This document shows, one piece after another, positions 6,301 to 61,666 of a stretch of 64,000 nt of DNA. The first letter of the stretch is position 1. Each line of letters begins with the position of its first letter. The stretch comes from Cordylochernes scorpioides. Its lineage: Eukaryota; Arthropoda; Arachnida; Pseudoscorpiones; Chernetidae. Under the pieces are notes generated by a model, which saw nothing but the letters and a program-made list of their open reading frames with translations, did no database searches and was not told the DNA's origin. The position numbers and the translations under genes were made by a program. The DNA lies in NCBI GenBank assembly GCA_030710605.1, contig CP092875.1:66464311-66528310 (forward strand), given 5' to 3'.

Positions 6301-6424
6301 ATCGGTTTAAATACCAAATAAACGCTTATATATTTTAGAATATTAACTTAAATATAATTCATAATCACAAGGGGGAAATTCAGACCATCAATACCTCTCT
6401 GATCACCTTGTTAGTTCTTCGAGG

Positions 6425-6610
6425 TACCACGCTGATGAGAGCTAACAGCATTAAATGTGTATGTGGTTGACTTTTCTTGATTCATAAAGATTAAACGATT
6501 TTTGTTAATTCTATGGAATAAAATATTCATGTTTATGTTATATTTATTCCGATAAATGGGGAAATCCATTTGCAAAGCTCAGTTTCACAATCAGGGCCCA
6601 ATTTTCTCTG
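6425..6610 (+). repeat. Hammerhead-bearing short repeat, decayed copy
   Basis: ACCACGCTGATGAGAGC, TAACA and GC are followed by a lost GAAA arm and then a TGTGG stretch that can re-pair with ACCACG. Downstream are TTTCTTGATTCATAAA and ATTTATTCCGATAAATGG, the body of the same unit that carries the intact ribozyme near 39.1 kb. Confidence 0.55.
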
Positions 6611-7479
6611 GAAGTATTTCAAAATAAAATTGCATATACACAATCAATTTATACACAATATTGCCACCTGAAAGAGAATACCTGATCATTATTTGATCAT
6701 CTATGATTCAAATTAGAATCCCCATTTACCATTGCCAACTTTAAACTTCTAAACGCTGCTACTATGTCAGAAGAAACCTACAGCTCCATCTTTCTGCTAC
6801 GGAGATGGGTGACACATATTTCATATTCACATATTTCACATAGATCAAAATGAGAAAACTCACTTCGAAGCAATTTCATGGATGGGAATAATTATTACAA
6901 CTTAACAGAGATAAAAGGTACAGTGAGACAATGATAGAAATATTGGAAATATATCAATACTTTAATAATCTGCGGATAATATAAATATTCTGTTCATATC
7001 TATTTCCACAGTGTATCTCTGACCTGCATCTTTCATCCTTGTCGCTTCTGACATGGATCTTACTTGTGTCTTTCAAGAATTCCTTCAACGCCATTAAAGT
7101 CGGCCATTACTAGCTTTGCTAATTTGTATTTCTGAAGAAAAAGCAGGAGGGTCATCCTGTTGTCAAAAGAGACTGAAAAACAATTATTTGCTTGAAAACG
7201 ACTGAATAATTCTGAGATATTCGCTGCTAAATAGAGTTCATAGCATCCATGGCTTCAAGGTCTGCTTAAGAATCTTCAGTTTGTCTTCCTTATCCTTACC
7301 CAGGGTCGCCATCAAAATGACACAGAAAAAATTAATATAAAAAAAATAAAATAAAAACGTGTTCACTATTTATTCACGTAAATGAAAATCATGGTAACAT
7401 GAAGAATATCCCAATAAGAGTGTTTATAAAATACAATTCTGTTACAGTATCAAACACAATACAATTATGAAAAAAAGAA

Positions 7480-7560
7480 AGGGGCATCATTTATATTTAT
7501 TCCGATAGATGGCGATAGCCATCAGCAACATTCAGTTGCACGATAAGGAAATACCTCCTT
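7480..7560 (-). repeat. Short repeat fragment (body of the hammerhead-bearing family)
   Basis: TTATTCCGATAGATGGCGAT, AGCCATCAGCAACATTCAGT and TGCACGATAAGGAAATACC match in reverse complement the sequence at about 38.98-39.05 kb. No ribozyme motif is present here. Confidence 0.6.
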
Positions 7561-7639
7561 TTCATAATTTATGCACCTTATCCCAGTACAATATCATATT
7601 AGTACTATTTCATTCACAGTACAATAAACTTATATACAC

Positions 7640-8315: not shown

Positions 8316-8689
8316 ATAATAGCATTGTTTCCATGTTTTCTTTTAGAATCTGAGTCCTGGTCGGTATTTTACCTTATATGTTTGGGAAATCTTTCAGATA
8401 AAAAGAGAAAATGATGATAATACTTATAGTTGAAGAGATTCCCCCCCCCCCTTATATATATAAGATGTTGAGTTCTCTCTGTGAAGTTTTCATTTGAGAG
8501 GCTGAAGAAATTATGGAAATAAAGAGCTTTCCTATCTCTCTGTTAGACGTATAAAAAGAAACTGGAATTTTGATTGAATTCAAAATTTAGTATTCAATAT
8601 ATTGAATATTTAATGAATCGCCTTTTGATTTAAATCAAAATTTAGTGTTATACGATGTTCATTTGCTGTTTCAAGAAAATGTTTGGCCA

Positions 8690-8830
8690 ATATTATGGAA
8701 TAAGCCTAAATCAACGTTTAATTGATATTTATTCCGCTAGATGGAGTTCTGCCAACTAATTTGAGCGGTCAGGATATACCTATTTAGTCATTTTACTATC
8801 TGACCGTATCTACTTTACATATTTTACCTT
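8690..8830 (-). repeat. Fragment of the short interspersed family without ribozyme
   Basis: TTTGGCCAATATTATGGAAT, AATCAACGTTTAATTGATAT, TTATTCCGCTAGATGG and GGTCAGGATATACC are shared, in reverse, with copies at 41.9, 46.9 and 39.0 kb. Confidence 0.6.
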
Positions 8831-17891: not shown

Positions 17892-18368
17892 ATGGAAATT
17901 AACCCAGGCACCAGCACAACAAAAGGCAATGACAACCCAAGAGAGAAGGAACTGGCAACGAACGGAAAGAAGCTGACAACGAACGAGGCGACAAGACACA
18001 CCCTGGCGACGGTAATTTTAGAACTGACCGCCGCGCTACAAGGGGCGAGATCCACGCAACTGAAAGCGGTCTTCCGGAGCGCCACCCTCGGGACAACCGC
18101 CGCCCGCACCGCCGGTACGTGTCCAAACAGCCTGACACCCACCGAGGAATCACCACCCGCCATGCCGTACCAGTACACACGGAAGCAACCCACGCGACAC
18201 GGACCCAGTGTACCGACAACGCGATCCACTCGAATGGAAGCAGTACAAATGACTAGATTTCCCTTTCAATCGCGCGGACAGTGCAAAAGGTCCCGATCCG
18301 GTTCAACAGATATTCCAAGCCAACCACACCAAGCCGAAGACGCCACAATGGAGACTTTTCGAGACTAA
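17892..18368 (+). CDS. Short gag-like ORF (158 codons)
   Basis: It starts at ATG 17892 and ends TAA 18366-18368. The protein is Thr/Arg/Ser-rich. It lacks both the capsid-like region and the CX2C knuckle of the 330-codon Gag in the relative at 30466-31458. What links it to gag is position, start context (GATGGAAATTAAC) and the 3' end: GAG ACT TTT CGA GAC TAA lies in an overlap with the +1 pol frame, just as in the relative. It probably cannot build particles alone. It could be the product of an internal deletion, since the shared region is short. Confidence 0.55.
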   Translation: MEINPGTSTTKGNDNPREKELATNGKKLTTNEATRHTLATVILELTAALQGARSTQLKAVFRSATLGTTAARTAGTCPNSLTPTEESPPAMPYQYTRKQPTRHGPSVPTTRSTRMEAVQMTRFPFQSRGQCKRSRSGSTDIPSQPHQAEDATMETFRD

Positions 18369-20757
18369 GGTAGGCAATCCACCCAATGACATCATCAAAT
18401 TAACTTTGGACTTGTATCTGACCCAGGACCTACCATGTACCTTTCTCATTGAACCAGACGCAGGTTCGAACATACTGCCGTATCATTTATACAATAGATT
18501 AAAAGCACAACTTCCCAACTTAAGTATTAAAAAACCTTCCCTTGATCTATCCACCCTAAATAGTTTTACGAAAATAATAGGACATTTAACTTTCCCTCTG
18601 ACAATAGGCCAAATAACCCGTAGAGAGAACTTCCACGTGGTAAATGCATCCTTGCCATTTGGAGTTCTTACCTTAAAAACCCTTTATCAATATAAATTAA
18701 AACTAAATTATAATCGCGGCACTATTTTCCAACTTGGCGTCCCATTGTCTAATACTATCTACCACTTTAAACATGTATCAAATGAATGCAAGCACGGGCT
18801 AGGCCAAAACCTGTCCCAAAGGACTCGCACAGCACCCAAAACTTTCACACATGGAAAACCTTGCCTGCATTCATTGCCCAAACCCCAAATATTTACATGC
18901 CACCATTATAATCTCACACCACACAACTTTTCACTCAACCCAATTACCAGTACTATATGCCCACAACATGTAAAGTCACCACGACTTCAATCTACAACTC
19001 CAATAATACCCAAACAAGTGTCCGTACACCGACACAGCTCACCCACTTACCACACAAAATTCACACATGACCACACTTCGCCACACCATAATTACGCAAA
19101 TGTACCTCACAACATACACGCACCCATACGTCACCACGCGACAAACACGCACAACCCGCACAACAAACGCAACACGCACGCCAAAAGACAACAACAACAA
19201 ACAAGCGCATGCACAACCGTTAAGAATAATACAATCATCCCGTCTACACAAAACATAGAAAAAATTCACGACACCAAACAACCACACAATCGAAAAACAT
19301 TACGATCTTTCCTAAAAACTGTGAACGCCTATAAAGAGTTCATTCCGGACCACGCCCGCTTGCGGACGCCACTTGTCAACCTTCTAAAAAAGGATGTCAT
19401 GTGGGTCTGGGATGACGAATGCCAGAAAGCGTTCACTAACCTGAAAGAAAACCTTACCACACACCCCACATTACACCTTTACCAGGAAGGTCTGCCATGC
19501 CAGGTGTACTGTAACGCCTCAACATTCAGCATTACAGGCGTTCTTAAACAAGTCTACCCTGATGGGAAGACATACACCGTTCAACATTTCAGCCGATCTC
19601 TGCGTAATCACGAGCGAAACTATTCAGACTTGGAACTACAATGCCTAGCCATTGTGGAAAGTGTGGATAATTTCCGCACCTGTCTAATGGACAGAAAGTT
19701 TACAATATTTTCTGACCATCCCGCATTGCAGTGGTTGAAAGAGATCAAAGCTCCGTCAGGCAGATTGTTTCGATGGAGGTTAAGATTGTCAAGATACGAA
19801 TATGAGGTCCGTAGCATAAATGGAGCACAACAATATGAAACGGGCGTTGTAACTCGTATCCCATTTTGTGGCTTTCTAGATGCGCCACTCATAAAGAACC
19901 AACAATCTTCTCCACCGGGAAAATCCCGCGTGACTATGGATCCCTATAAACTGCGCACCGTCTCCCGAAAAGGAGTACTTAAAACTATAGTCCCAAATTC
20001 ATTTACAACCAGACTTCTTAAGTCCGTACACACACAACACCACCACCCAAGCATCTCCACGATGACGAGACTCATCTCAGCACAATATTATTGGCAGAAC
20101 ATGACACAAGACATCGCAAAACAGGTAAAAACCTGCCCCACCTGCCGATTCGCTAGAGGAATCGATGAATACAAACAACCTGCACGTAAAAATACCGACA
20201 CAGGTACCCAAACAAAACAAAATTCGTACATAAAGCACAGCGTACACACAACACAAACAATGCCAAAATTACCACATCCACGTCAGAGAAAAGATCACAC
20301 ATTTCAACCTAAACCAATTACCGCCGACATATCTCTAATAAAACCATTGACGATCAAACAGGAGAACTGTAAACCTGACAACCAATCCAATCATATCACA
20401 CCACTCCCTAAAGATATCAAACAGGAGAACTGCGAACCTACCAATCATTCAAATTCTACAATTCATAAGGTTCAAGCAAATATTTCAGAGTCCCCAGTTA
20501 CAAAAATGTGGACGAACATGGGGCAATATCCTATCTTTCATCTGATTTTTATCCTTTGTTTATTAATTCTACCGTACAACTGTATTCCAATTTTATTCAT
20601 TAAGTACTTGTGTATCTATACCATGCCCGCTCGTAAAATCTTCGAACTACAAGAGGCAGTTTTTAATTTTGGACAAGCATTTATAAAACTTCTCCTAATT
20701 TTAGGAACCATCCTCGCAGAAAATCTAAATAAACTCCGCAGAGGTAGCAATAACTGA
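18253..20757 (+). CDS. Chimeric pol-like ORF lacking RT and integrase core
   Basis: The open frame runs 18253-20757; residue numbers count from 18406. Residues 1-110 match the relative's protease, but the active-site D-T-G is replaced by E-P-D (16-18). Residues about 150-300 are a His/Asn/Thr/Pro-rich linker where RT should be. From about 305 the RT connection and RNase H follow, with catalytic Asp changed to N370 and G480; E410 and D437 remain. An HHCC zinc finger follows (C577, C580). The integrase core is absent, replaced by a polar segment with two IKQE repeats (650, 671) and hydrophobic stretches (about 709-732 and 760-775). There is no internal stop in 2.5 kb. I infer a non-enzymatic product made as a gag fusion; its function is unknown. 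Confidence 0.75.
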   Translation, partial: LDFPFNRADSAKGPDPVQQIFQANHTKPKTPQWRLFETKVGNPPNDIIKLTLDLYLTQDLPCTFLIEPDAGSNILPYHLYNRLKAQLPNLSIKKPSLDLSTLNSFTKIIGHLTFPLTIGQITRRENFHVVNASLPFGVLTLKTLYQYKLKLNYNRGTIFQLGVPLSNTIYHFKHVSNECKHGLGQNLSQRTRTAPKTFTHGKPCLHSLPKPQIFTCHHYNLTPHNFSLNPITSTICPQHVKSPRLQSTTPIIPKQVSVHRHSSPTYHTKFTHDHTSPHHNYANVPHNIHAPIRHHATNTHNPHNKRNTHAKRQQQQTSACTTVKNNTIIPSTQNIEKIHDTKQPHNRKTLRSFLKTVNAYKEFIPDHARLRTPLVNLLKKDVMWVWDDECQKAFTNLKENLTTHPTLHLYQEGLPCQVYCNASTFSITGVLKQVYPDGKTYTVQHFSRSLRNHERNYSDLELQCLAIVESVDNFRTCLMDRKFTIFSDHPALQWLKEIKAPSGRLFRWRLRLSRYEYEVRSINGAQQYETGVVTRIPFCGFLDAPLIKNQQSSPPGKSRVTMDPYKLRTVSRKGVLKTIVPNSFTTRLLKSVHTQHHHPSISTMTRLISAQYYWQNMTQDIAKQVKTCPTCRFARGIDEYKQPARKNTDTGTQTKQNSYIKHSVHTTQTMPKLPHPRQRKDHTFQPKPITADISLIKPLTIKQENCKPDNQSNHITPLPKDIKQENCEPTNHSNSTIHKVQANISESPVTKMWTNMGQYPIFHLIFILCLLILPYNCIPILFIKYLCIYTMPARKIFELQEAVFNFGQAFIKLLLILGTILAENLNKLRRGSNN
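18357..18362 (+). promoter_or_regulatory. Candidate +1 ribosomal frameshift site TTT_CGA
   Basis: Gag frame reads ACT TTT CGA GAC TAA. Slipping +1 on TTT (to TTC) moves reading into GAG ACT AAG of the pol frame, which is open from 18253 to 20757. TTT_CGN is a known +1 site (influenza A PA-X, amalgaviruses). The relative has TTT_CGT at the same place. Confidence 0.55.
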
Positions 20758-27215: not shown

Positions 27216-30200
27216 CTAATTGAAAATACTGGGATTTAAATGTAAAAAAGGCTGTGAGCTTGTAGGCGGTATAATTCGGAATAATTGTTTTTCAAAGATA
27301 TCTGGAGTCAAATGATTGAATTCAATGAAATATACATCTTGAGGCAATCGCTGTGGGTGTTGAACGAATCGGAGCTGTGGAGGTGTTATGTACAACACAT
27401 CCTCTGTGTAATATTTTAATTTATTGACATGTATGGTGTCACTATCTCTATTGAGTGGCTGATTTGGGCGATCGATTCGAACGACATTGGGTGAAATAAT
27501 TTGAATTATTTTGTAGGGTCCAGTAAAATATGGTGCTAATTTACCTGTGTCGGGATGTCTGTAATTTTTTACCAAAACAAGGTCATTCTCTTCGAAATGT
27601 GGTGTTCTGTGCTGCTTATCAAATGTTTCTTTATCTTTTTTATGTTTATTTTGAGTACGAGAGTTTGCTATCTCTCGAGCTATTTTTATCTCGGGATATG
27701 GGTTCAGATGAGTTCTTAGATCTGGGGGGATAACATTGAACATTAAGTAGGTAGGTGGAAAACTTGTGACAGAATGGGGTGTGTTATTGTACGTCTGAGT
27801 GACGCGTTTAACTAGTTGAGTCCAGGAAGCTTTCGGATTTTCTAGATAAGCTAGTCTGAGCTTGCCTGTAATGGTCGCATTTAAGCGTTCTATTAAACCG
27901 TTTGCTTGTGGATTATTGCTGGTAGTTAGTAGAGGTTGTATACCATGCATTATTAGAAATTTACGGAATTTTTCTGAGGTAAAAGCAGGCGCTCTGTCAG
28001 ATAACAGACGTTTTGGAGATCCTTGCTGTAGTACAGTCTTGAGGGTTTGAATGTACGTTAGGGTACTGGTGGACTTTGATGGAAAGGTCCAAGCATATCG
28101 CGTTAAATGATCCACTATTACGTGTAGATAGGTCTTGGAGTGTCCATATTTCGAAAATCCAGCTATGGTATCTATAGAGATTAAGTCGAATGGTTGTTGA
28201 GGTGGTGGAATTTGTCCGAGGGCACCATAGGGTTTTCCTTTGGGCCTTTTAATGATTTGGCAGGTGTGACACGACCTGACAAATTTTTCTATAGATTTAG
28301 AGATACCTTTCCAGTAGTACTGGGTAGCAATTATGCGGGTCATCTGAGAGATGCCTGGGTGGTTATACTTTTGGTGAACTTTGTTCATGAGAGAATGTTG
28401 CAGGGTTTCGGGAATTATTATTTTAGTTACACCTTTTCGGGTAATGGTATGTAAGCCGTTTGTATCAATGTTGAAGGGGGATGCTGTTGGTTGATGCTGT
28501 TTTATAATATCAGTACTGATAAATCCTACAAAGGGGTTTCTTGAGAGTAAATCTGCCTCATACTGTTGACTGCCTTTGATGTAGTGTATTTCGTAATTAT
28601 AGGTAGATAGTCTCAGGCTCCATCTAAATAGTCGGCCTGACGGATTTTTTATAGTTTTAAGCCATTGTAAAGCTTGATGGTCTGTGTATATGGTGAATTT
28701 TATACCGGTGAGGTATATTCGGAATTTGTCTACACTTTCGACGATGGCGAGGCACTCAAGTTCGGAAACGGTGTAGTTTCTCTCATGTGCCCTAAGGGCG
28801 CGGCTAAAATATTGCACAGGATGTATTTGTCCGTCTGGGTGTACCTGTTTGAGTATGCCGGCAATCCCTTGGGTGGATGCGTCGCAATAAAGGCGGCATG
28901 GTAAACCGACTTGATACAAGTGTAGTACTGGTTTACTGGTTAAACTCTCTTTGAGAGTGATGAAAGCTTGTTGACAGTCTGTGTTCCAATTCCATTTTAC
29001 ATCCTTTTTAAGTAGTTTATTTAAAGGTGCTCGTAAGCGGGCATAATCTGCTATAAACTTATTATAAACGTTTACTGCTCCTAAAAATGATTGTAGTGTT
29101 TTTTGATTGTTAGGTGTTTTTATGGCATTTATAGTATCAAGGTTGCGCGTCTGCGGTGCATAAGTACCTGCGGTAACAGTGTATCCTAAGAAATCTATTT
29201 TTGTTTTAAAAAATGAACATTTATTATAATTAAGTTTGATGTTTTCGTGTTGACACACTGTTAGAAATTGTTGTAGGTGTTGTAGATGATCCTCTAGGGT
29301 GTCAGAAAAAATAATGAAATCGTCGAAGTAATGGGTAACAAAATTTAGTTTATATTTTTGCATGACCTGGTTTATGGCACGATGGTATATCTGTGGTGAA
29401 TTTTTAAATCCGTAAGGAAGTCTACAAAATTCGTACTGACTATCTAACGTCACGAAAGCTAGTAGATTACGTGAGTTAGGTTCTATTTCCACTTGCCAAT
29501 ATGCGGATGCTATATCTACAGAAGAGTAATATTTGGCTTTTGACAATTTGTCAAGAATGGTTTCTATTAAGGGTAAAGGATGTACGTCTGGCGCGATGAT
29601 TTCATTAAGTTTTCTGTAATCAATACAGAAACGCTTCGTTTGGTCACGTTTGGTAACAAGCGTTATGGGACTGGCATAAGGTGAAACTGACGGGGCAATG
29701 ATTCCATATTGGAGCATTTGTTCTATTTGGGTTTGTATTTCTTGTTGGTCGTGTAGTGGCACTCTATATGGGCGTAATGCTATTATTTTATCTGTGGTGG
29801 TATTGATTTTTACCGGTGGTATGTTCAATTTGGGCACATTGTATTTATTAGTAGAGAACACTTGTGAGAATTCATATAGAATTCGGTGGAGTTCGTGTGG
29901 ACAATGTTCTAACTGAGGTGCCGCATTAGAAGGTATAGAAATCTCAATATCATGGGTAGGAGATATAGGGGGTGAACATATAATTGGAGTAGAGTCCGCC
30001 ACGTGTAAACAGGACTGGTGCGAGGGGAAAGTGGTAAACATATCAGTTTCCCTCGGTTGAGTGGAACATAAATCCTGTTTGCACTTGGTGAACTTATAGA
30101 CATTCGTTGGGAGAGCATCATTATTTTGATAAATTTGGAGATTATTAAAATCTATAATTAATTTAAATATTTTAAGGGTATTAATAGATAAAATACCAAA

Positions 30201-30491
30201 AGGTAGTGAAGCTTCTACTATAAAAAATTTTAGTTTTTGGGTGAGGTTACCGATTTTAAGTTTTAAAAAAATATATCCAAGGGTATTTACATTGTGGGCT
30301 ATTGCATTTATAGTTAAACTGTATTGATGGATAATAATTTTATATGGTAATCTATTTTCTATGGTTCTTAAAATATCTAAGTTAAGTAGGTTTATAGATG
30401 CTCCCGTGTCTATTAAAAAGGGCAAGTTTACATTTGGTGACAATTCAGTCCATATTATTAATTGTTCAACGAAAATAAGTTTCAGGTTTTC
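27216..30491 (-). CDS. pol: Pol polyprotein: protease, RT, RNase H, integrase
   Basis: The frame opens after a TAG near 30492 and runs to 27216; residues are counted from 30443. Domains in order: protease with LIDTGAS (D12-T13-G14); RT with FCIDYRKLNEI, SSVDIASAYWQVEI and the catalytic YFDD (372-375, Phe in place of the common Leu/Ile/Val); RNase H with D521 in YCDAS, SELECLA, TDHQAL and EADLLSR; integrase with an HHCC finger (NHPGISQM...SCHTCQ) and D758, D816, E852, which is DD35E spacing; and a C-terminal GPYKI module. All catalytic residues are present and there is no stop. It lacks its own strong start and is best made by +1 frameshift from gag. Confidence 0.95.
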   Translation of the reverse strand, partial: ENLKLIFVEQLIIWTELSPNVNLPFLIDTGASINLLNLDILRTIENRLPYKIIIHQYSLTINAIAHNVNTLGYIFLKLKIGNLTQKLKFFIVEASLPFGILSINTLKIFKLIIDFNNLQIYQNNDALPTNVYKFTKCKQDLCSTQPRETDMFTTFPSHQSCLHVADSTPIICSPPISPTHDIEISIPSNAAPQLEHCPHELHRILYEFSQVFSTNKYNVPKLNIPPVKINTTTDKIIALRPYRVPLHDQQEIQTQIEQMLQYGIIAPSVSPYASPITLVTKRDQTKRFCIDYRKLNEIIAPDVHPLPLIETILDKLSKAKYYSSVDIASAYWQVEIEPNSRNLLAFVTLDSQYEFCRLPYGFKNSPQIYHRAINQVMQKYKLNFVTHYFDDFIIFSDTLEDHLQHLQQFLTVCQHENIKLNYNKCSFFKTKIDFLGYTVTAGTYAPQTRNLDTINAIKTPNNQKTLQSFLGAVNVYNKFIADYARLRAPLNKLLKKDVKWNWNTDCQQAFITLKESLTSKPVLHLYQVGLPCRLYCDASTQGIAGILKQVHPDGQIHPVQYFSRALRAHERNYTVSELECLAIVESVDKFRIYLTGIKFTIYTDHQALQWLKTIKNPSGRLFRWSLRLSTYNYEIHYIKGSQQYEADLLSRNPFVGFISTDIIKQHQPTASPFNIDTNGLHTITRKGVTKIIIPETLQHSLMNKVHQKYNHPGISQMTRIIATQYYWKGISKSIEKFVRSCHTCQIIKRPKGKPYGALGQIPPPQQPFDLISIDTIAGFSKYGHSKTYLHVIVDHLTRYAWTFPSKSTSTLTYIQTLKTVLQQGSPKRLLSDRAPAFTSEKFRKFLIMHGIQPLLTTSNNPQANGLIERLNATITGKLRLAYLENPKASWTQLVKRVTQTYNNTPHSVTSFPPTYLMFNVIPPDLRTHLNPYPEIKIAREIANSRTQNKHKKDKETFDKQHRTPHFEENDLVLVKNYRHPDTGKLAPYFTGPYKIIQIISPNVVRIDRPNQPLNRDSDTIHVNKLKYYTEDVLYITPPQLRFVQHPQRLPQDVYFIEFNHLTPDIFEKQLFRIIPPTSSQPFLHLNPSIFN

Positions 30492-36570: not shown

Positions 36571-37890
36571 CGAGGGCCATTCAATAAATAAGTTTCCCTA
36601 TTTTTTTTTCTGCGAACGAAATGTTGTAAAATATAGTTAATAGTGTAAGAAATGGTCACTAGGATGCGTTGGAAACGCGTGACCTTCAAAATCACGCTAC
36701 TCGTACGCGCAAGTCCGTAGCGCTTCAGTTTCCATGGAGCAACCACTGGTGAACGTGTTTACTTGCGAACTCCGTTCTGTAATTCGTTTTTTTTTTCACG
36801 GCGAAAAATGAAACTGCGGTCAATGATGCTCGTATGAGCATCCAAATGGTTTGCCGATGGCGTTCATGGTTCTTGGAAGGACGGCAAAACGTGCATGATG
36901 ACGAGCGAAGCGGCAGGCCCGTTACTGCTACGGACAATGCAGCCGTTGCTGCTGTTCGGAATGTGGTGGAAGCAGATCGCCGCGTCACCATTGACGAAAT
37001 AATGATTCGACTGCCTCCTGGAATCGAAATTGGACGCTCTTCGATTGGAACAATCATGTCAGACGTTTTGAATTTTCGCAAAGTCTGCGCAAGATGGGTC
37101 CCGCGTTTGCTCTCGGAAAATCACAAGCAACAACGGATGGAGGCAGCCAGAGCTTTCCTGGAAATGCATCGAAGAGATGGAGATCAACTGTTTTCCCGTA
37201 TTGTCACTGGAGATGAAAGCTGGGTGCATCATTCAACTCCAGAAACAAAACGACAAAGCATGGTGTGGAAGAAGCCTGAGGAAAGTGCACCAAAAAAGGC
37301 GAAGGTCACAATCTCTGCAGGCAAAGTTATGGCTATCGTTTTTTGGGAATGTAAGGGTGTTTTATTGTTTGACCACCTGCCCCCAAACACTACGGTTAAC
37401 GCTGCGAGGTACTGCGAAGTCATCACTAAACTCAGAGCTGCAATAAAACGGAAACGTCCTGGACTTTTGTCTCGGAAAGTGTTACTCGTCCATGACAATG
37501 CTCGCCCTCACGCAGCTCGAACGACCCAAACGTTGCTGGAAAACTTCAAATGGGAAATTTTCACACATCCACCTTATTCTCCGGAACTAGCCCCAAGCGA
37601 CTTCCATTTTTTTCCAGCATTCAAGTTGCACCTTGGAGGCGGGCACTTTGCGAATGATGACGAAGTGCAGGCGTAGGCGAACCATAGGCTACGAAGACAG
37701 GACACGGCTTGGTACAACAGTATTATTAAAAAATTGCTACAATGGTACCAAAAATGTTTGGACAGAAATGGCGATTATGTAAAGAGGTAGTCTATGAGTT
37801 GTATAATGAAAATAAAATAACTGTATAATTGTAAATAATGTTGTTTATTTGTTTAAAAAATAGGGAAACTTATTTATTGGATGGCCCTCG
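36571..37890 (+). mobile_element. mariner element, nearly complete (1320 bp)
   Basis: The 30-bp terminal inverted repeats start CGAGGGCCATTCAATAAATA (left) and CGAGGGCCATCCAATAAATA (right, reversed), each followed by AGTTTCCCTA. TA target duplications flank it. It sits inside copy A of the long repeat, and the uninterrupted site is seen in copy B. Confidence 0.95.
36740..37800 (+). pseudogene. mariner transposase with two small lesions
   Basis: The main open frame is 36834-37676. Upstream, CELRSVIRFFF (mariner HTH) is in another frame; the shift maps to the A run near 36804-36808. An in-frame TAG at 37674-37676 cuts off the last 40 or so residues, after which DTAWYNSIIKKLLQWYQKCL continues to the natural stop. 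Catalytic motifs are intact: GDESWVHH, LVHDNARPHAA and SPELAPSDFHFF, with 34 residues between the second and third Asp (DD34D). DNA cut-and-paste enzyme of the mariner family, probably inactive now. Confidence 0.9.
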
Positions 37891-38294: not shown

Positions 38295-38960
38295 GTTTAA
38301 AGATATAGAATTTAAAGCTTTACTTTTTACCACCATCTCTAGTCATCAATTAGACTAATTTACGATATTTATTCTATTTAGAAAATATTTTTTTTTTACC
38401 ATTTTAACGTTTAAAATTTCAATTTTTCTTCAAATAAAAGACACTTCGGCCAGTAAATCTTTTTATTGTCTCGACGAGTCGACAAAAATCTTTTGTCTTC
38501 GTCAGGAGCAAACAAAAATTGAAACATTTGGCAAAGCGTTAAAAATTATTCTAAGGCTGCAAGGGCGTTCTCACGCGGTATTTCAAATTTTGTACAACAT
38601 CTAATGCACGAGTCAAAAACAAATATTTAACTCACAAAATACTATGATCTTTTAAATAAATTATATAAATATATGTATATATATAATGAGAAATTTCATT
38701 TTATTATCAAAAAAGGATTCTTTAAGTGTGATATCATCAATGATCAAAATATAAAAAACATATTCATTATATACGTCTTAATTAGTTGATATGTACTTGT
38801 GTATGTATATATGTATTTGTGTACATTGGTAAGTATCTAGTTTATTCGAACGCTGATTGGTTATCTACTATCACGTGACCTCAATCAGCCAATTAGCGTT
38901 ATGTTTATTAGCCAATCAGCGTGCAGTTTTTTAGTTCAGTAGTTGTATTGGTCAACAAAG
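38295..38960. other. AT-rich spacer with CCAAT/CACGTG cluster
   Basis: Mostly A/T. At 38855-38960 there are GATTGGTTATC, CACGTGACC, CAGCCAATTAGCG, GCCAATCAGCG and TATTGGTC, a dense CCAAT-box cluster like that of LTR promoters. No transcription unit is seen except the hammerhead repeat to the right. Confidence 0.4.
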
Positions 38961-38964
38961 TTCT

Positions 38965-39200
38965 CTATTATGAAAAAAGGCATCTCCTTATCGTGCAACT
39001 GAAAGTTGCTGATGGCTTGCGCTATCTATCGGAATAAATATCAACTATTCTCGTTGATTTTTAATTATTCCAGAATTGGCCAAATACCCATTCTTGATTA
39101 ATCGAGAAAAGCTAACCACGGACGCGTTTCGGGCTGTTGGCCCTCATCAGCGTGGTGCAAGCTGTGCCTCAACGACCGAAAGTTCTCTATGTTAAATATA
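38965..39200 (-). mobile_element. Hammerhead-bearing short retroelement (retrozyme-like unit)
   Basis: The unit holds GGCATCTCCTTATCGTGCAA, GGAATAAATATCAAC, GAATTGGCCAAATACCCATT and TCTTGATTAATCGAGAAAAG, followed by the ribozyme. The same order occurs at 46918-47160 and, reversed, at 6425-6610. In animals, small HHR-bearing elements of this size and Penelope-like elements are the known carriers of such minimal ribozymes; the link is inference. Confidence 0.55.
39115..39156 (-). ncRNA. Hammerhead ribozyme, complete consensus core
   Basis: Minus strand, in order: ACCACG (stem I), CTGATGA, GGGC-CAACA-GCCC (4-bp stem II with loop), GAAA, CGCGTC, CGTGGT (stem I, 6 perfect pairs). The A-C / G-T pairs within ACGCGT form a 2-bp stem III with a 2-nt loop. 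That palindrome would also allow a more stable dimer. The predicted cut follows the C of GTC. All invariant core bases are present. Stem I can extend beyond a small internal loop (GCT/AGC). Confidence 0.85.
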
Positions 39201-40164: not shown

Positions 40165-40500
40165 GCGGCTTATGATTGTAGAACGACATATGACAATTAT
40201 CCCGAAATGTTTCTTTTGAACGAAAAATCAAATTTTATTTAAAGAAGAAATAATGATTATTTCTAACCAGGGTAGCCTAGTGGACATGACATCTGCCCGG
40301 TAAGCGGAACACTGTGGGTTCGATTCCCATCCCTGGCAACTTTATTTTTCCATTTATTACTACTCTTAACAAATTCATCCTTTCATACTTCATCCCTATG
40401 GTTGGAAATAATCGTTATTTCTCCTTAAAATAAATTTCGATTTTTCGTTCAAAAGAAACATTTACGGTATAATTGTCATATGTCGTTCTATAATAATTAA
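40165..40500. mobile_element. Foldback element with tRNA-like core
   Basis: Left arm: GTAGAACGACATATGACAAT, AAATGTTTCTTTTGAACGAA, AAATAATGATTATTTCTAACC. The right arm is its reverse complement (GGTTGGAAATAATCG..., TTCGTTCAAAAGAAACATTT, ATTGTCATATGTCGTTCTA). The arms are about 95 bp and the centre about 155 bp. Another copy without the tRNA-like part is at 7640-7800. Confidence 0.8.
40266..40338 (+). tRNA. tRNA-like sequence, anticodon GGT (Thr-type), possibly pseudo
   Basis: CCAGGG at 40267 pairs with CCCTGG at 40331-40336. The A box TAGCCTAGTGG and B box GGTTCGATTCC are good. Anticodon stem TCTGC/GCGGA has loop CCGGTAA, so position 33 is C where T is nearly universal. The D stem is weak. 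It may be a tRNA-derived pol III promoter captured by the foldback element rather than a working tRNA. Confidence 0.45.
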
Positions 40501-40514
40501 CCTTGCTTTATATA

Positions 40515-41456
40515 CGAGGGTGAGTAGAAAAGTAAGGTCGCCTATTTTTTTTTCATAGAAAAACACATTTAATCACAACTTTTTATACATCATTGTAAAG
40601 GTTGGAGACTTTGCTATATTTCTACATAGTCGCCTTGATGCTCAATCACTTTTTTCATCCTGTCAACCAACTTTGTAATTCCGGTGTTGTACCACTCTCC
40701 CGCCGCCTCTTTGAGCCACTTGTCGACCCACCTGGCGGACATCTTTCTGTAGCCGAGGGTCTCAGACAAAATCTTGTGCACGGAGAAGTGGCTGCAATCT
40801 TCACTCAGGCCATCCTCGATCTCTTCAAGGGTTATCCGCCGGTTTACGGTTGATTCCGGCAAACTCGGCCGCCCAGACCGCTGTTCATCGTGGACGTTTA
40901 TCCGCCCCTCGTTAAACTCCCGGCACCATTTCCGCACATTTTTGATGTCCATGCACTTCTCACCATACACTTCCACTAACTGACGGTGAATTTCGACCGG
41001 AGAATTATTTTTCGCATTTAAAAAGCGTATAACTGAGCGCAACTCGCACTTGGCGGGAGAGCTAAGGGGAAGCTCCATCGCGAACGGCTGCCAGACAGCG
41101 ACTGAGCGTCCCAAGATCACCGGGAAGGTTCTAGACGGTAGAGGGGGAACCAAGGAAGGCAGCGGTGTTGTCGGATTTCACCTAGCAACGCGCGTTCGGA
41201 AATTATCTAGTAGAAGACCTTAGTGTCCGCCAGGTGGGTCGACAAGTGGCTCAAAGAGGCGGCGGGAGAGTGGTACACCACGGGAATTACAAAGTTGGTT
41301 GACAGGATGAAAAAGGTGATTGAGCATCAAGGCGACTATGTAGAAAAATAGCAAAGTGTCCAACCTTTCCAATGATGTATAAAAAGTTGTGATTAAATGT
41401 GTTTTTCTATGAAAAAAATAAATAAATAGGCGACCTTACTTTTCTACTCACCCTCG
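40515..41456 (-). mobile_element. mariner deletion derivative with long inverted ends
   Basis: Ends CGAGGGTGAGTAGAAAAGTA, AGGTCGCCTA; TA duplications on both sides. The first 230 bp or so (40515-40746) are repeated inverted at 41225-41456, including transposase C-terminal coding text (GTGGGTCGACAAGTGGCTCA, AAGAGGCGGCGGGAGAGTGG). The 3' end has thus replaced the original 5' end, giving a foldback structure. Confidence 0.85.
40614..41153 (-). CDS. In-frame fusion: mariner DNA-binding domain plus C-terminal tail
   Basis: 179 codons. After an upstream stretch the true start is probably MELPLSSPAKCELRSVIRFL (ATG about 41078). The HTH pair is complete (EIHRQLVEVYGEKCMDIKNV, then RKWCREFNEG, then HDEQRSGRPS). 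At RKMSARWV it jumps to DKWLKEAAGEWYNTGITKLV and DRMKKVIEHQGDYV, the normal transposase end. The whole DD34D catalytic region is missing, yet the frame is kept. Such a product could bind mariner ends without cutting. That is inference. Confidence 0.7.
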   Translation of the reverse strand: MVPPLPSRTFPVILGRSVAVWQPFAMELPLSSPAKCELRSVIRFLNAKNNSPVEIHRQLVEVYGEKCMDIKNVRKWCREFNEGRINVHDEQRSGRPSLPESTVNRRITLEEIEDGLSEDCSHFSVHKILSETLGYRKMSARWVDKWLKEAAGEWYNTGITKLVDRMKKVIEHQGDYVEI

Positions 41457-41889
41457 TATACACGTGGTCAAATGATAATAGTTTATATATACACTCATGT
41501 AGAAAACTTAAGGAAGTTCTACTTTTTACATGTATATCGGGATTCAGCAAACAATAACTCTGAAAGATATTACAGTGACCTTTATTGAAAACACACGAGA
41601 TAACCAAGTGTGAACAAAATTGTCTCTGTCTCCTTAAATAAAAAAATAAATAAAACAGACGACTGGCTAAATAAAAGGCTTTCCACTTCCTTAAGTTTGT
41701 CCATGAGTGTATTTATGTTGTATATGGTTAATTTTAGAATTGGCAGTTGAGACTTTAACGGCTTAAAATATCCAGATCGCTAACCCTAATCTTACCAACT
41801 TGATACAAAAGACTATTTTAAACTACAGAATATACAAAGGGCCGGTCAATAACACTAATGCACAACGACATATAGAAATATTAAAAATA

Positions 41890-42115
41890 TAAAAGCCATA
41901 ACCCGACCAGGATGTGATTTTCAGATGGCAGAGCGCCATCTGGTGGAAAAGAAATCAACTAAACATTGATTTAGCCTGTTCCCTGATATTTGACCAACCC
42001 AATTTCTTGATAAATCAATGTTTAATTGATTTCTGTTCCACCAGATGGCGCTCTGCCATCTGAAAAGCACATGTGCTTCTGGTCAGGATATGCCTTTTCT
42101 ATTTTTAATATCAAC
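41890..42115. repeat. Foldback copy of the short interspersed family
   Basis: Left and right halves are mirror images: CAGATGGCAGAGCGCCATCT, GGTGGAA, AATCAACTAAACATTGATTT, then GCCTGTTCCCTGATATTTG, then AAATCAATGTTTAATTGATT, TTCCACCAGATGGCGCTCTG. GACCAGGAT and ATCCTGACC form the outer ends. It lacks the ribozyme part. Confidence 0.8.
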
Positions 42116-42239
42116 ACCTGACCTTTTTATTTTTTCTATTATTTTTTTACATATAGAAATATATATATAAATAATTTATCATCAGGGAAATGATGTTTTA
42201 TTTTTTAATAAACATTATTATTTTTATTTCTGCGAACAG

Positions 42240-45230: not shown

Positions 45231-45724
45231 TTATTAAGACCCCATTGGTCTTAAATAGGTTTACATAACTTAACCCAAATATTGCTTGCAGACATAATTC
45301 TCAGGCCATTTATTCAAAATAAATAAATATCCTTAAAAATCACAACTAAATCTCAAATAATTCTCTCATATATAAAATAAATGCATGTCAGTTTCACGTT
45401 GATCATCGTTAAATATGCAGAACCCTTAAAATAGACTCAACATATATGTGCCACGTGTGAATTACAATAAAATTATTTAAAATAGAATCTAAAACAACTT
45501 ACAAAAATACAGTATAACAAACGGTAGCAATAGCTATCGCCATAGGTAGCTATAGCAATATGTAAAAATGCATCACCTCTATCTTAATCTCTAATAGACA
45601 GAGAATTTACTCATTGCTCCCTTTACAAATTCAAAGAACTAGAACATATAAATTTCTACATTATCTTCGGAAAATTTAGCTCCCCACTATCTTTTATTTA
45701 CATTTATACATATTTAAAATAAAA

Positions 45725-46005
45725 AAAATGGCATATCCTGACCAGGAGCAACATGTGCTTTACAGAAGGCAGAACGCCATCTGGTGGAACAGAAATCAAT
45801 GAATTTAGATACAGTTAAACCTGTCTATAGCGCCCCCTCTTGGGACTCACCAAAATAGGGTGCTATAGAGAGGGGGTGCTATAGACAGGTCACTTTTAAT
45901 GTAAAATGTTTACATTTTATTGTTTAAAATCGGGCGCTTTAGAGAGGAAGGCGCTTCTGTAAAGCACATGCTGCCCCTGGTCAGGATATGCCATTTTTTA
46001 TTTTA
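45725..46005. repeat. Foldback short repeat with nested pogo-like MITE
   Basis: Outer arms: GGCATATCCTGACCAGGAGC, ATGTGCTTTACAGAAGGC at the left; GCGCTTCTGTAAAGCACATG, CCTGGTCAGGATATGCC at the right. Between them from 45812 lies CAGTTAAACCTGTCTATAGC and more of the MITE, truncated near 45948. Confidence 0.75.
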
Positions 46006-46234
46006 ATATCAACACCTGACCTTTTTATTATTTTTTTCTATCATTTTTTCATATGCATATTTATATCTATGATTTTCTCTCTTTTGGTTAAAAAAACCGT
46101 AATTGCCAAACTAGGTATATTTATTTCATTGGTTGGTTGTAAATTCAAGCATGATTTTAATGTCCTTTCCTTTCTTTTCTTCTTTAAACTCTACTCAAAA
46201 CATGTAATTATTCAATTGTTTATGTAAAATAGAA

Positions 46235-46399: not shown

Positions 46400-46917
46400 T
46401 ATATAAATTTAGTGTTGTTTCTTGACGCAAGCATCCCTTGTAGAGATATCGCATCTTATTTGATAAAAAAAAAAGAACAAATCTTTTATTTGGAACATTT
46501 CTATCTCTTCCCGACAGTGAACCAATATCAATTTACAATCCAAATGTTATATAGACTATACACCAACGAATGCAAAAATAGCACAAAAACTAAAAAAATA
46601 CGATATAAGGTTTTTCTTTCGCAGTCCAAGAACTACTGAAAAAATTCTGAGAAACTCTAACACAAAATAGATGAAAAATCGGAACACCAAATAGAAACAG
46701 AATGTCATATATATGGAATCACTTTTAGAATGCCATTCCATTTATAACCAGCAGAATTATAGAAACGATAATCAAGGAACATAAATATAGCATCAAAACA
46801 AAATCATAAATCACGTATTTATCAGACTACTAGTTGAATGACCCGGGCAACTCATTGTTGTTGTTGTACTTTAGCCGGCTCAAATCTTTCTGTACATATG
46901 TAAATACTAAAAATAAA

Positions 46918-47165
46918 AAAGTATATCCTGACCAGAAGCACACGTGCTTTACAGAAGGCAGAGCGCCATCTGGTGGATCAAAAATCAACTATTCATTGAT
47001 TTAGCCTGTTCCCTGATATTTGGCCAACCCGATTTCTTGATAAATCAAGAAAAGCGATCCACGAAGGCGTTTCGCGCTGTTGGCGCTCGTCACAGTGGAG
47101 TAGGCTGTACCACTGCGACCAAAAATATTTTTGGTCCCAGAGGCTTCTTGAAAAACCAAGAAATG
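46918..47165 (-). mobile_element. Hammerhead-bearing short unit, second full-length copy
   Basis: Order as at 38965: ATATCCTGACCAGAAGCACA, GGCAGAGCGCCATCTGGTGG, AAATCAACTATTCATTGATT, GCCTGTTCCCTGATATTTGG, TTCTTGATAAATCAAGAAAA, then the ribozyme relic. Confidence 0.6.
47058..47099 (-). ncRNA. Hammerhead ribozyme relic
   Basis: Same 42-nt length as the intact one: TCCACT, GTGACGA, GCGC-CAACA-GCGC, GAAA, CGCCTT, CGTGGA. The core C3 has become G, which should abolish cleavage. Stem II keeps pairing through two changes relative to GGGC/GCCC (covariation). Confidence 0.6.
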
Positions 47166-47848
47166 GGTATTTATGGCCAAACTTGCGTAAATATGCTTAA
47201 CACATGAAAAATATTTCCTATGTAAATACGTAATTCTTTATTTCCTTAATTCTACTCGCCCTAAGTCAAGGTATTATTTAATCCTCAATTATATCTATCA
47301 GATCAATATTAAAGTAAATAATATTCTAAAATCAACCGAAATCCTTTTTGAAATATATTTAGAAAGAGAGATAGCAACACAAATACCATAATTACCAACC
47401 TGGACAGCCCCACCTACCATTACAGTAACCTATCTATCAAATCAAAAAGGTTTGACTCAGAATCCCTAATATATAAAAGTAAGATCAGTATATTAACAGG
47501 AGAATAAAAACTCCAGAATAGATATTTTATTATCAGAGAGCTCAATATATATAATATAAGCCAATGTCCTTTAATAATATCTCTGTAATTACAAAAAATA
47601 GCATTTTTGTGTTTATCCTTCAATATTTGAACACGCCTTATCTTTAGAGAAATGAGATTTTTATTCAAATTTTGGTATATGTTTACTATAATATATTTAA
47701 ATATCATTTATTACATATTAGAATTAATGATATTTATCTTTGAGAATATTTTTCCTTGTGTAAAATTGAAAATACCGATAGCACAGCTGGATTTAAAATT
47801 CAAATTAATGGATTTTAGAGGGTGAAAGTTTATTATAAATATTTAATA

Positions 47849-52744: not shown

Positions 52745-52975
52745 CAAAGTTTGTATGAAAGGCACTACGCATGCTTCGATATATGAAAAAAAAAAGGTCA
52801 GGTGTTGATATTAAAAACAAATTAGGCCTATCCTGACCACTAACATGAGCATCTTTTAGATAGCAGAGCACCATCTGGTGGAACAGAAATCAATTAAATG
52901 TTGATTTAACCTGTTACTTGAAGGTAAAAGCATCGTTTAGTTGATTTCTTTTCCACTAGATGGCTCTCTCTCTCT
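52745..52975. repeat. Foldback copy of the short interspersed family
   Basis: AGGTCAGGTGTTGATATTAA, CTATCCTGACC, GCAGAGCACCATCTGGTGGA, ACAGAAATCAATTAAATGTT, and the mirrored GTTGATTTCTTTTCCACTAG ATGG, ending in a TC microsatellite. Confidence 0.65.
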
Positions 52976-61480: not shown

Positions 61481-61666
61481 ATATTTTAACATTGTATAAT
61501 TAATTCGAAATATTTCATGATATCAAATTATATGAAGATATTTCGGCCAGTAAATCTTTTTAATTTGAAGAACTATGAATGCCGGCCAGGCAACTTCTAT
61601 ATTTACGATAAATTATATTGAATTATTTGAAATGATCATACAAAATTTTGAAATAACTCCAAATAC

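Follow-up and report, generated by a model that had tools for sequence, protein, structure and literature searches.

Short repeats with type I hammerheads include the Sm-alpha and Sj-alpha elements of Schistosoma, which the element reported here resembles by description. A newt satellite is described in similar terms (PMC7229834). Closest to the present element are the metazoan non-LTR retrozymes of coral, mussel and axolotl, described in 2020 as tandem units of 170-400 nt with a type I hammerhead, a GC content below 50%, no long open reading frame (ORF), strongly paired RNA and target site duplications (TSDs) longer than 4 bp (PMC7229834). The axolotl hammerhead HHR_Amex1 has a weak palindromic stem III, and its cleavage, poor in the monomer, improves in the dimer (PMC7229834).

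Penelope-like elements (PLEs) have been named as likely but unproven candidates for moving animal retrozymes (PMC7229834, PMC7761336). A lizard PLE is reverse-transcribed from two neighbouring internal start sites, and this accounts for the 30-40-bp "tail" of its genomic copies; its targets are AT-rich, and its hammerhead mutants still insert in vitro (PMC11167929). The PLE tail is described as optional on one of two inverted pseudo-LTRs (PMC3846280). Here, we describe an insertion in a 64-kb stretch of the Cordylochernes scorpioides genome ("the window") that is very probably a copy of a metazoan non-LTR retrozyme, a noncoding unit of ~340 nt with a type I hammerhead, copied by PLE proteins.

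Results

A complete type I hammerhead at the locus

An earlier note on this DNA had read the pieces of a hammerhead from the minus strand at 39115-39156, and re-reading of the sequence found all of the letters at the positions given. These comprise the stem I 5′ strand ACCACG (39151-39156), the core CTGATGA (39144-39150), stem II GGGC/CAACA/GCCC (39131-39143), the core GAAA (39127-39130), a palindrome ACGCGT in place of stem III (39122-39127), C17 (39121), and the stem I 3′ strand CGTGGT (39115-39120). Outside the earlier coordinates, and across an internal loop, stem I is extended by a 4-bp AGCT/AGCT helix (39160-39163 with 39110-39113), giving a type I hammerhead at 39110-39163 of the minus strand with predicted cleavage between 39121 and 39120. 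Judged on its sequence, the hammerhead at the locus is complete and predicted to be self-cutting.

A permissive scan of 401 nt with the Rfam covariance models gave RF02275 Hammerhead_HH9 as the best match (25.1 bits, E 4.2e-4, 39101-39166, covering model positions 1-77 of 77), a score below the gathering score of 52, and the scan at gathering thresholds found no hammerhead in the window. The window copy scored 97.7 bits with the ribozyme model R1, among whose sequences it was itself included. The window has a single occurrence of the full string CTGATGA-N-GAAACGCGTC, which none of 100 shuffles contained, and the loose core CTGANGA...GAAA is at chance level (six seen, 4.5 expected).

The 339-nt unit to which the hammerhead belongs is predicted to fold strongly, both as a linear RNA (–119.6 kcal/mol, z –9.0 vs. 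shuffles) and as a circle (–113.2 kcal/mol, z –9.5). Stem I, its extension and stem II have pair probabilities of 0.67-1.0 in the unit fold and stem III is absent; the fold of the isolated 85-nt ribozyme is unremarkable (z –0.93). Stem III amounts at most to an A15.1–U16.1 pair capped by the palindrome CGCG. The ACGCGT palindrome, kept in typical copies of the related family B (below), allows pairing between two ribozymes and is a probable dimer contact, and by analogy with HHR_Amex1 the hammerheads probably act in pairs.

Two dispersed families of abutting units

The earlier note had placed the hammerhead in a dispersed repeat, and relatives of 38969-39178 do lie on many contigs of the genome (2.62 Gb, 24 contigs). 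The search for this family (family A), in which 40 of 2801 first-look candidates were scored, returned at least 50 matches; 43 of the matches listed, the window copy included, are near full length at 96-100% identity. A second family (family B), searched with the window copy at 46910-47211, returned at least 51 matches, with 40 of 3179 candidates scored.

The fetched loci show a full family A unit of 339 bp that occurs in tandem and palindromic arrays and as inverted partial copies. The full family B unit is 351 bp, also in tandem, and is 73.7% identical to the family A unit over 331 aligned bases. Units of both lengths directly abut one another in the tandem arrays examined. The longest ORF with an ATG on the tripled unit is 68 aa in A and 33 aa in B, and unit GC is 41%. 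The PLE-anchored loci (126 kb) hold six retrozyme clusters and the window 11 pieces, which suggests, by a rough extrapolation that takes the sampled density as typical, that the genome may hold of the order of 10^5 retrozyme pieces.

The hammerhead is conserved and covaries between families

Other copies that keep the core, whose absence the earlier note would have counted towards a refutation, were found in family A: 32 of 60 hammerhead-spanning stretches in 39 loci show either of two forms in which the core is intact, 26 with the majority sequence and six further ones that differ outside the core only. Between the majority A hammerhead (55 nt) and a B string from locus L090 there are nine differences, consisting of three compensatory pairs, N7, H17, and one internal-loop base. 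N7 and H17 are positions that hammerheads leave free. Only 300 of 2,000,000 random nine-change sets left a valid hammerhead.

Pairing is kept in 95.7% of cells across 25 hand-picked distinct hammerheads (slid controls 28-44%) and in 530 of 574 cells (92.3%) across all 41 non-chance rows (slid controls 29-43%); three pairs change on both sides in either count. The number of double-changed pairs is no higher than in column shuffles (3 vs. 3.1). Double-changed cells number 29 vs. 12.8 in the shuffles, and none of 500 shuffles reaches 29; since the A and B blocks are two lineages, this covariation counts as about three events rather than 29. Because the search pattern that yielded the rows itself requires much of the core, core conservation is partly selected for. 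Within these bounds, the aligned sequences point to a hammerhead that is conserved and covarying between families A and B.

Insertions end at two fixed 3′ sites

The window insertion (38969-39178, minus strand, 210 bp) is 97.6% identical over 208 bp to a 339-bp tandem unit at locus L009. Relative to that unit it is 5′-truncated, and the window copy is thus a family A unit cut short at its 5′ end. It is flanked by a perfect 12-bp direct repeat, AAAGTTCTCTAT on the plus strand, with one TSD copy at the element's 3′ end (38957-38968) and one at its 5′ end (39179-39190). Other TSDs, read by eye, are ~9-14 bp. Insertion targets are frequently AT-rich, and several are (AT)n repeats, so that exact ends and duplications are ambiguous there.

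Two positions recur as 3′ ends. Site 1 lies at unit position ~205-215 (...GATGCCUUUUUC[A/U]UAA) and site 2 at ~251-261 (...ACUAUUUUUUCACA), with 50 nt between the motifs in A and 55 in B. In 39 loci, 42 clusters were scored as insertions, 23 with two arms and 19 with one; these loci were those that best matched a query with its end at site 1, and hence sample recent copies and not random ones. Nineteen of the two-arm insertions have one arm ending at each site, two have site 1 twice (L026, L046), and two have one end elsewhere (L020, L046). Where both ends were called, 19 of 21 are therefore mixed (P ~1e-4 for at least 19 if ends were independent). The one-arm insertions comprise 14 at site 1, one at site 2, three elsewhere and one without a called 3′ end; L021 is "elsewhere" under the counting rule used and was site 1 in an earlier scoring.

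Both insertions with site 1 twice have particular settings, since that at L046 lies inside a larger palindrome and that at L026 may, by eye, be two nested insertions. The flanks of the L046 palindrome are mirrored too; the palindrome is a genuine inverted duplication or else an artefact of the assembly. In family B, the pattern of one arm per site is seen at L082 and in a copy at L038; other, older B loci have unclear, cut or odd ends.

Site 1 of A, of B and of a resident PLE (L080) sits in the loop of a 7-bp stem, and no comparable stem surrounds site 2. The same hairpin criterion is reached by 171, 178 and 282 of 2000 shuffles (A, B and PLE, respectively), making this hairpin suggestive only. 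Between A and B, by eye, one pair of the stem is swapped on both sides and another on at least one side; several of the single A copies fold differently when folded alone. This putative RT-start hairpin is complete in the uninterrupted 339-nt unit, and the window insertion, ending at site 1, holds only its 5′ half (GATAAGG, 38986-38992) and the U-rich loop (38969-38992, minus strand).

The 5′ ends of the arms are not piled up at the cleavage site (2 of 66 vs. 1.4 expected), and cleaved RNA is hence not a visible template. At L011, both arms are ~2.4 units long and have unit-specific variants in common (60T in unit one, 75C in unit two), which makes it probable that one multimeric RNA was copied twice, from two start sites. 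That RNA was probably uncut at its hammerheads, or religated. Taken together with the unclustered 5′ ends, it indicates that cleavage is seemingly not needed at the moment of insertion.

Resident PLEs show the same layout

PLE-type nucleases are abundant in this genome: a search for GIY-YIG, with 150 of 17,015 first-look candidates scored, returned at least 146 matches. A minimal, stem-III-less hammerhead is present in 11 of 30 loci fetched by this search. Fifteen PLE copies with such a hammerhead, including L078 and L080, were scored by eye: nine end at a site 1 (...CUUUUUUCAA-like), four at a site 2 that follows a 40-nt tail, and two continue into the ORF. The PLE at L078 has one arm per site and a 9-bp TSD, TCAGGTAAT. 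Open frames at L078 and L080 encode RVT_1 followed by GIY-YIG.

What the retrozyme and these PLEs share is limited to a layout with two sites, U-rich ends, and a hairpin that encloses site 1. Apart from separate retrozyme copies, no stretch longer than 20 nt matched between the retrozyme and the sampled PLEs. Several PLE loci match the unit over 17 nt next to their GIY-YIG match, and this short match was set aside as chance. Because the retrozyme has two fixed 3′ ends, one per arm, as do the resident PLEs, PLE enzymes very probably mobilise it, to judge from these ends.

Two further loci, L077 and L079, have frames with a GIY-YIG match near the N-terminus; Pfam reports GIY-YIG in L077 only and RVT_1 in neither. 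We take these frames to be a permuted, Naiad-like PLE. A pattern search found no hammerhead at either locus, and L077 is a palindrome with arms of ~4.3 kb.

Related copies and other features of the window

Further retrozyme copies lie in the window. The family B copy at 46910-47211 (minus strand), with a TSD GTATTTACATA read by eye, has its hammerhead at 47045-47113 with C3 changed to G; this copy was in model R1. An old copy with a decayed hammerhead (6421-6595, plus strand) scores 40.7 bits with R1, which does not include it. A 5′-truncated family A fragment (7472-7618, plus strand) ends at site 2, at unit position 260. Family B pieces occur in an inverted two-arm layout at 41877-42147 (ends at unit positions 214 and 255), as two inverted pieces ~155 bp apart at 45718-46056 (ends at 214 and 270), and as two inverted fragments at 52791-52969. 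For another retrozyme fragment (8682-8744, plus strand), a reading as a fully replaced hairpin stem was dropped, since its 3′ part is probably flank.

A solo pseudo-LTR of a canonical PLE (38422-38695, minus strand) lies about 260 bp from the retrozyme insertion. It is 86% identical to the L080 PLE and has a degenerate minimal hammerhead in which GAAA is changed to GACT; a scan against Rfam at E 1 gave no match to it. A further, short PLE piece with a tail lies near 61564-61611.

The window also contains frames of the Ty3/gypsy type at 18253-20757 (plus strand) and 27216-30491 (minus strand), the second of which is open over 1091 aa and has relatives at 95-100% identity on several contigs. Mariner-like transposase frames with DDE or HTH domains are at 36783-37676 (plus strand) and 40614-41177 (minus strand). 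ARAGORN calls a tRNA-Thr gene with anticodon GGT at 40266-40338 (plus strand). This anticodon is unusual for a eukaryotic tRNA gene, and the call may represent a tRNA-like repeat or a foreign piece.

Discussion

Tandem units, a covarying hammerhead, TSDs and PLE-type 3′ ends support the earlier note in its suggestion of a Penelope- or retrozyme-type element with a hammerhead, as far as sequence features can. With its type I hammerhead, units of 339 and 351 bp, GC of 41%, lack of a long ORF, strongly paired RNA, 12-bp TSD and weak palindromic stem III, the pseudoscorpion element is, by the features tested on sequence, a new family of metazoan non-LTR retrozymes as these are described (PMC7229834). 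Its two families are new sequences, in an arachnid. Compared with the retrozymes portrayed in the parts of PMC7229834 on which we draw, pseudoscorpion copies are often single, 5′-truncated or inverted, and have two fixed 3′ ends. Relative to Hammerhead_HH9, stem III is reduced to a palindrome, with a score below gathering.

The element shares two reverse transcription start sites, a tail on one of two inverted ends, AT-rich targets, a start-site hairpin and an upstream hammerhead with canonical Penelope/Poseidon PLEs as described (PMC11167929, PMC3846280). It differs from them in encoding no protein, by ORF length, and in having no reverse transcriptase/GIY-YIG frame, unlike L078 and L080; its hammerhead is fuller, with the stem I extension, and its sites are 50-55 nt apart rather than the 40 nt of the resident PLE.

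We propose that tandem arrays would be transcribed and that the hammerheads, probably paired through ACGCGT, would release units that may be circularised; for this part in the production of units or circles we draw on published retrozymes. A PLE protein with reverse transcriptase and GIY-YIG nuclease would bind RNAs that contain the start hairpin, nick AT-rich DNA, and begin copying either within the U-rich loop of the hairpin (site 1) or, ~50 nt further downstream, at site 2. Single priming would give a simple 5′-truncated copy, as in the window, and priming on both strands would give inverted copies whose two arms begin at different start sites. RNA uncut at the hammerhead could serve as template. 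A more specific version, which we consider evenly balanced between true and false, is that the retrozyme is a parasite of PLEs that mimics their RT-start hairpin, with uncut multimeric RNA copied from one site per strand of a staggered break.

Alternatively, the unit could belong to an unseen autonomous PLE family with this same terminal repeat, as its solo or deleted pseudo-LTR. PLEs carry hammerheads (PMC11167929), a rotifer PLE has a pseudo-LTR of 218 bp and pseudo-LTRs can be direct or inverted (PMC3846280), and the 34 PLE-anchored loci fetched compare with 17,015 first-look GIY-YIG candidates, leaving room for such a family. Against this, units abut in the tandem arrays examined with no ATG frame above 68 aa, and the pseudo-LTRs of resident PLEs have a different, stem-III-less hammerhead and match the unit over no more than 20 nt, separate retrozyme copies apart. 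On these grounds we find a pseudo-LTR origin unlikely, although it is the strongest of the alternatives.

Slightly less probable still is a relic hammerhead, decayed or inactive, in a repeat that spreads through the RT-start hairpin alone. The in vitro insertion of lizard PLE hammerhead mutants (PMC11167929) would fit such a relic, as would the uncut or religated template at L011, the minimal stem III and the low Rfam score. A relic would not be expected to show nine A/B differences that all keep a valid hammerhead, with three pairs covarying and changes at core positions confined to free ones.

The repeat could instead be a LINE-mobilised SINE whose inverted copies result from twin priming and whose hammerhead is a passenger. 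LINE-driven insertion also gives 5′ truncation, TSDs of ~9-14 bp and inverted arms, and the Schistosoma Sj-alpha elements are reportedly called SINE-like in a paper title. The two fixed 3′ ends ~50 nt apart, of which 19 of 21 two-arm insertions use one for each arm, fit PLEs instead, and tandem multi-unit copies fit PLE descriptions, so we regard a LINE-driven origin as improbable. A chance hammerhead-like string in an ordinary repeat, to which the loose core at chance level and the unremarkable isolated fold might point, is negligible beside the absence of the full string from 100 shuffles and the covariation between families.

The new part of a retrozyme moved by PLE enzymes is the PLE link, as published work names PLEs as candidates only. 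A search of titles and abstracts in the open-licence literature returned no report of this retrozyme element, of a PLE tail on retrozymes, or of later proof of mobilisation by PLEs. The occurrence, in one genome, of recent retrozyme copies with a diagnostic PLE scar beside PLEs with the same scar makes the question of mobilisation testable. The L011 insertion suggests that uncut or religated multimeric RNA can be a template, which would separate the job of the hammerhead from the insertion step. If the proposed mechanism is true, the near-strict rule of one site per arm would imply that PLEs integrate by a coordinated reaction on both strands, each strand having its own fixed site. Parasitism of PLEs by the retrozyme would then settle which enzyme moves animal retrozymes.
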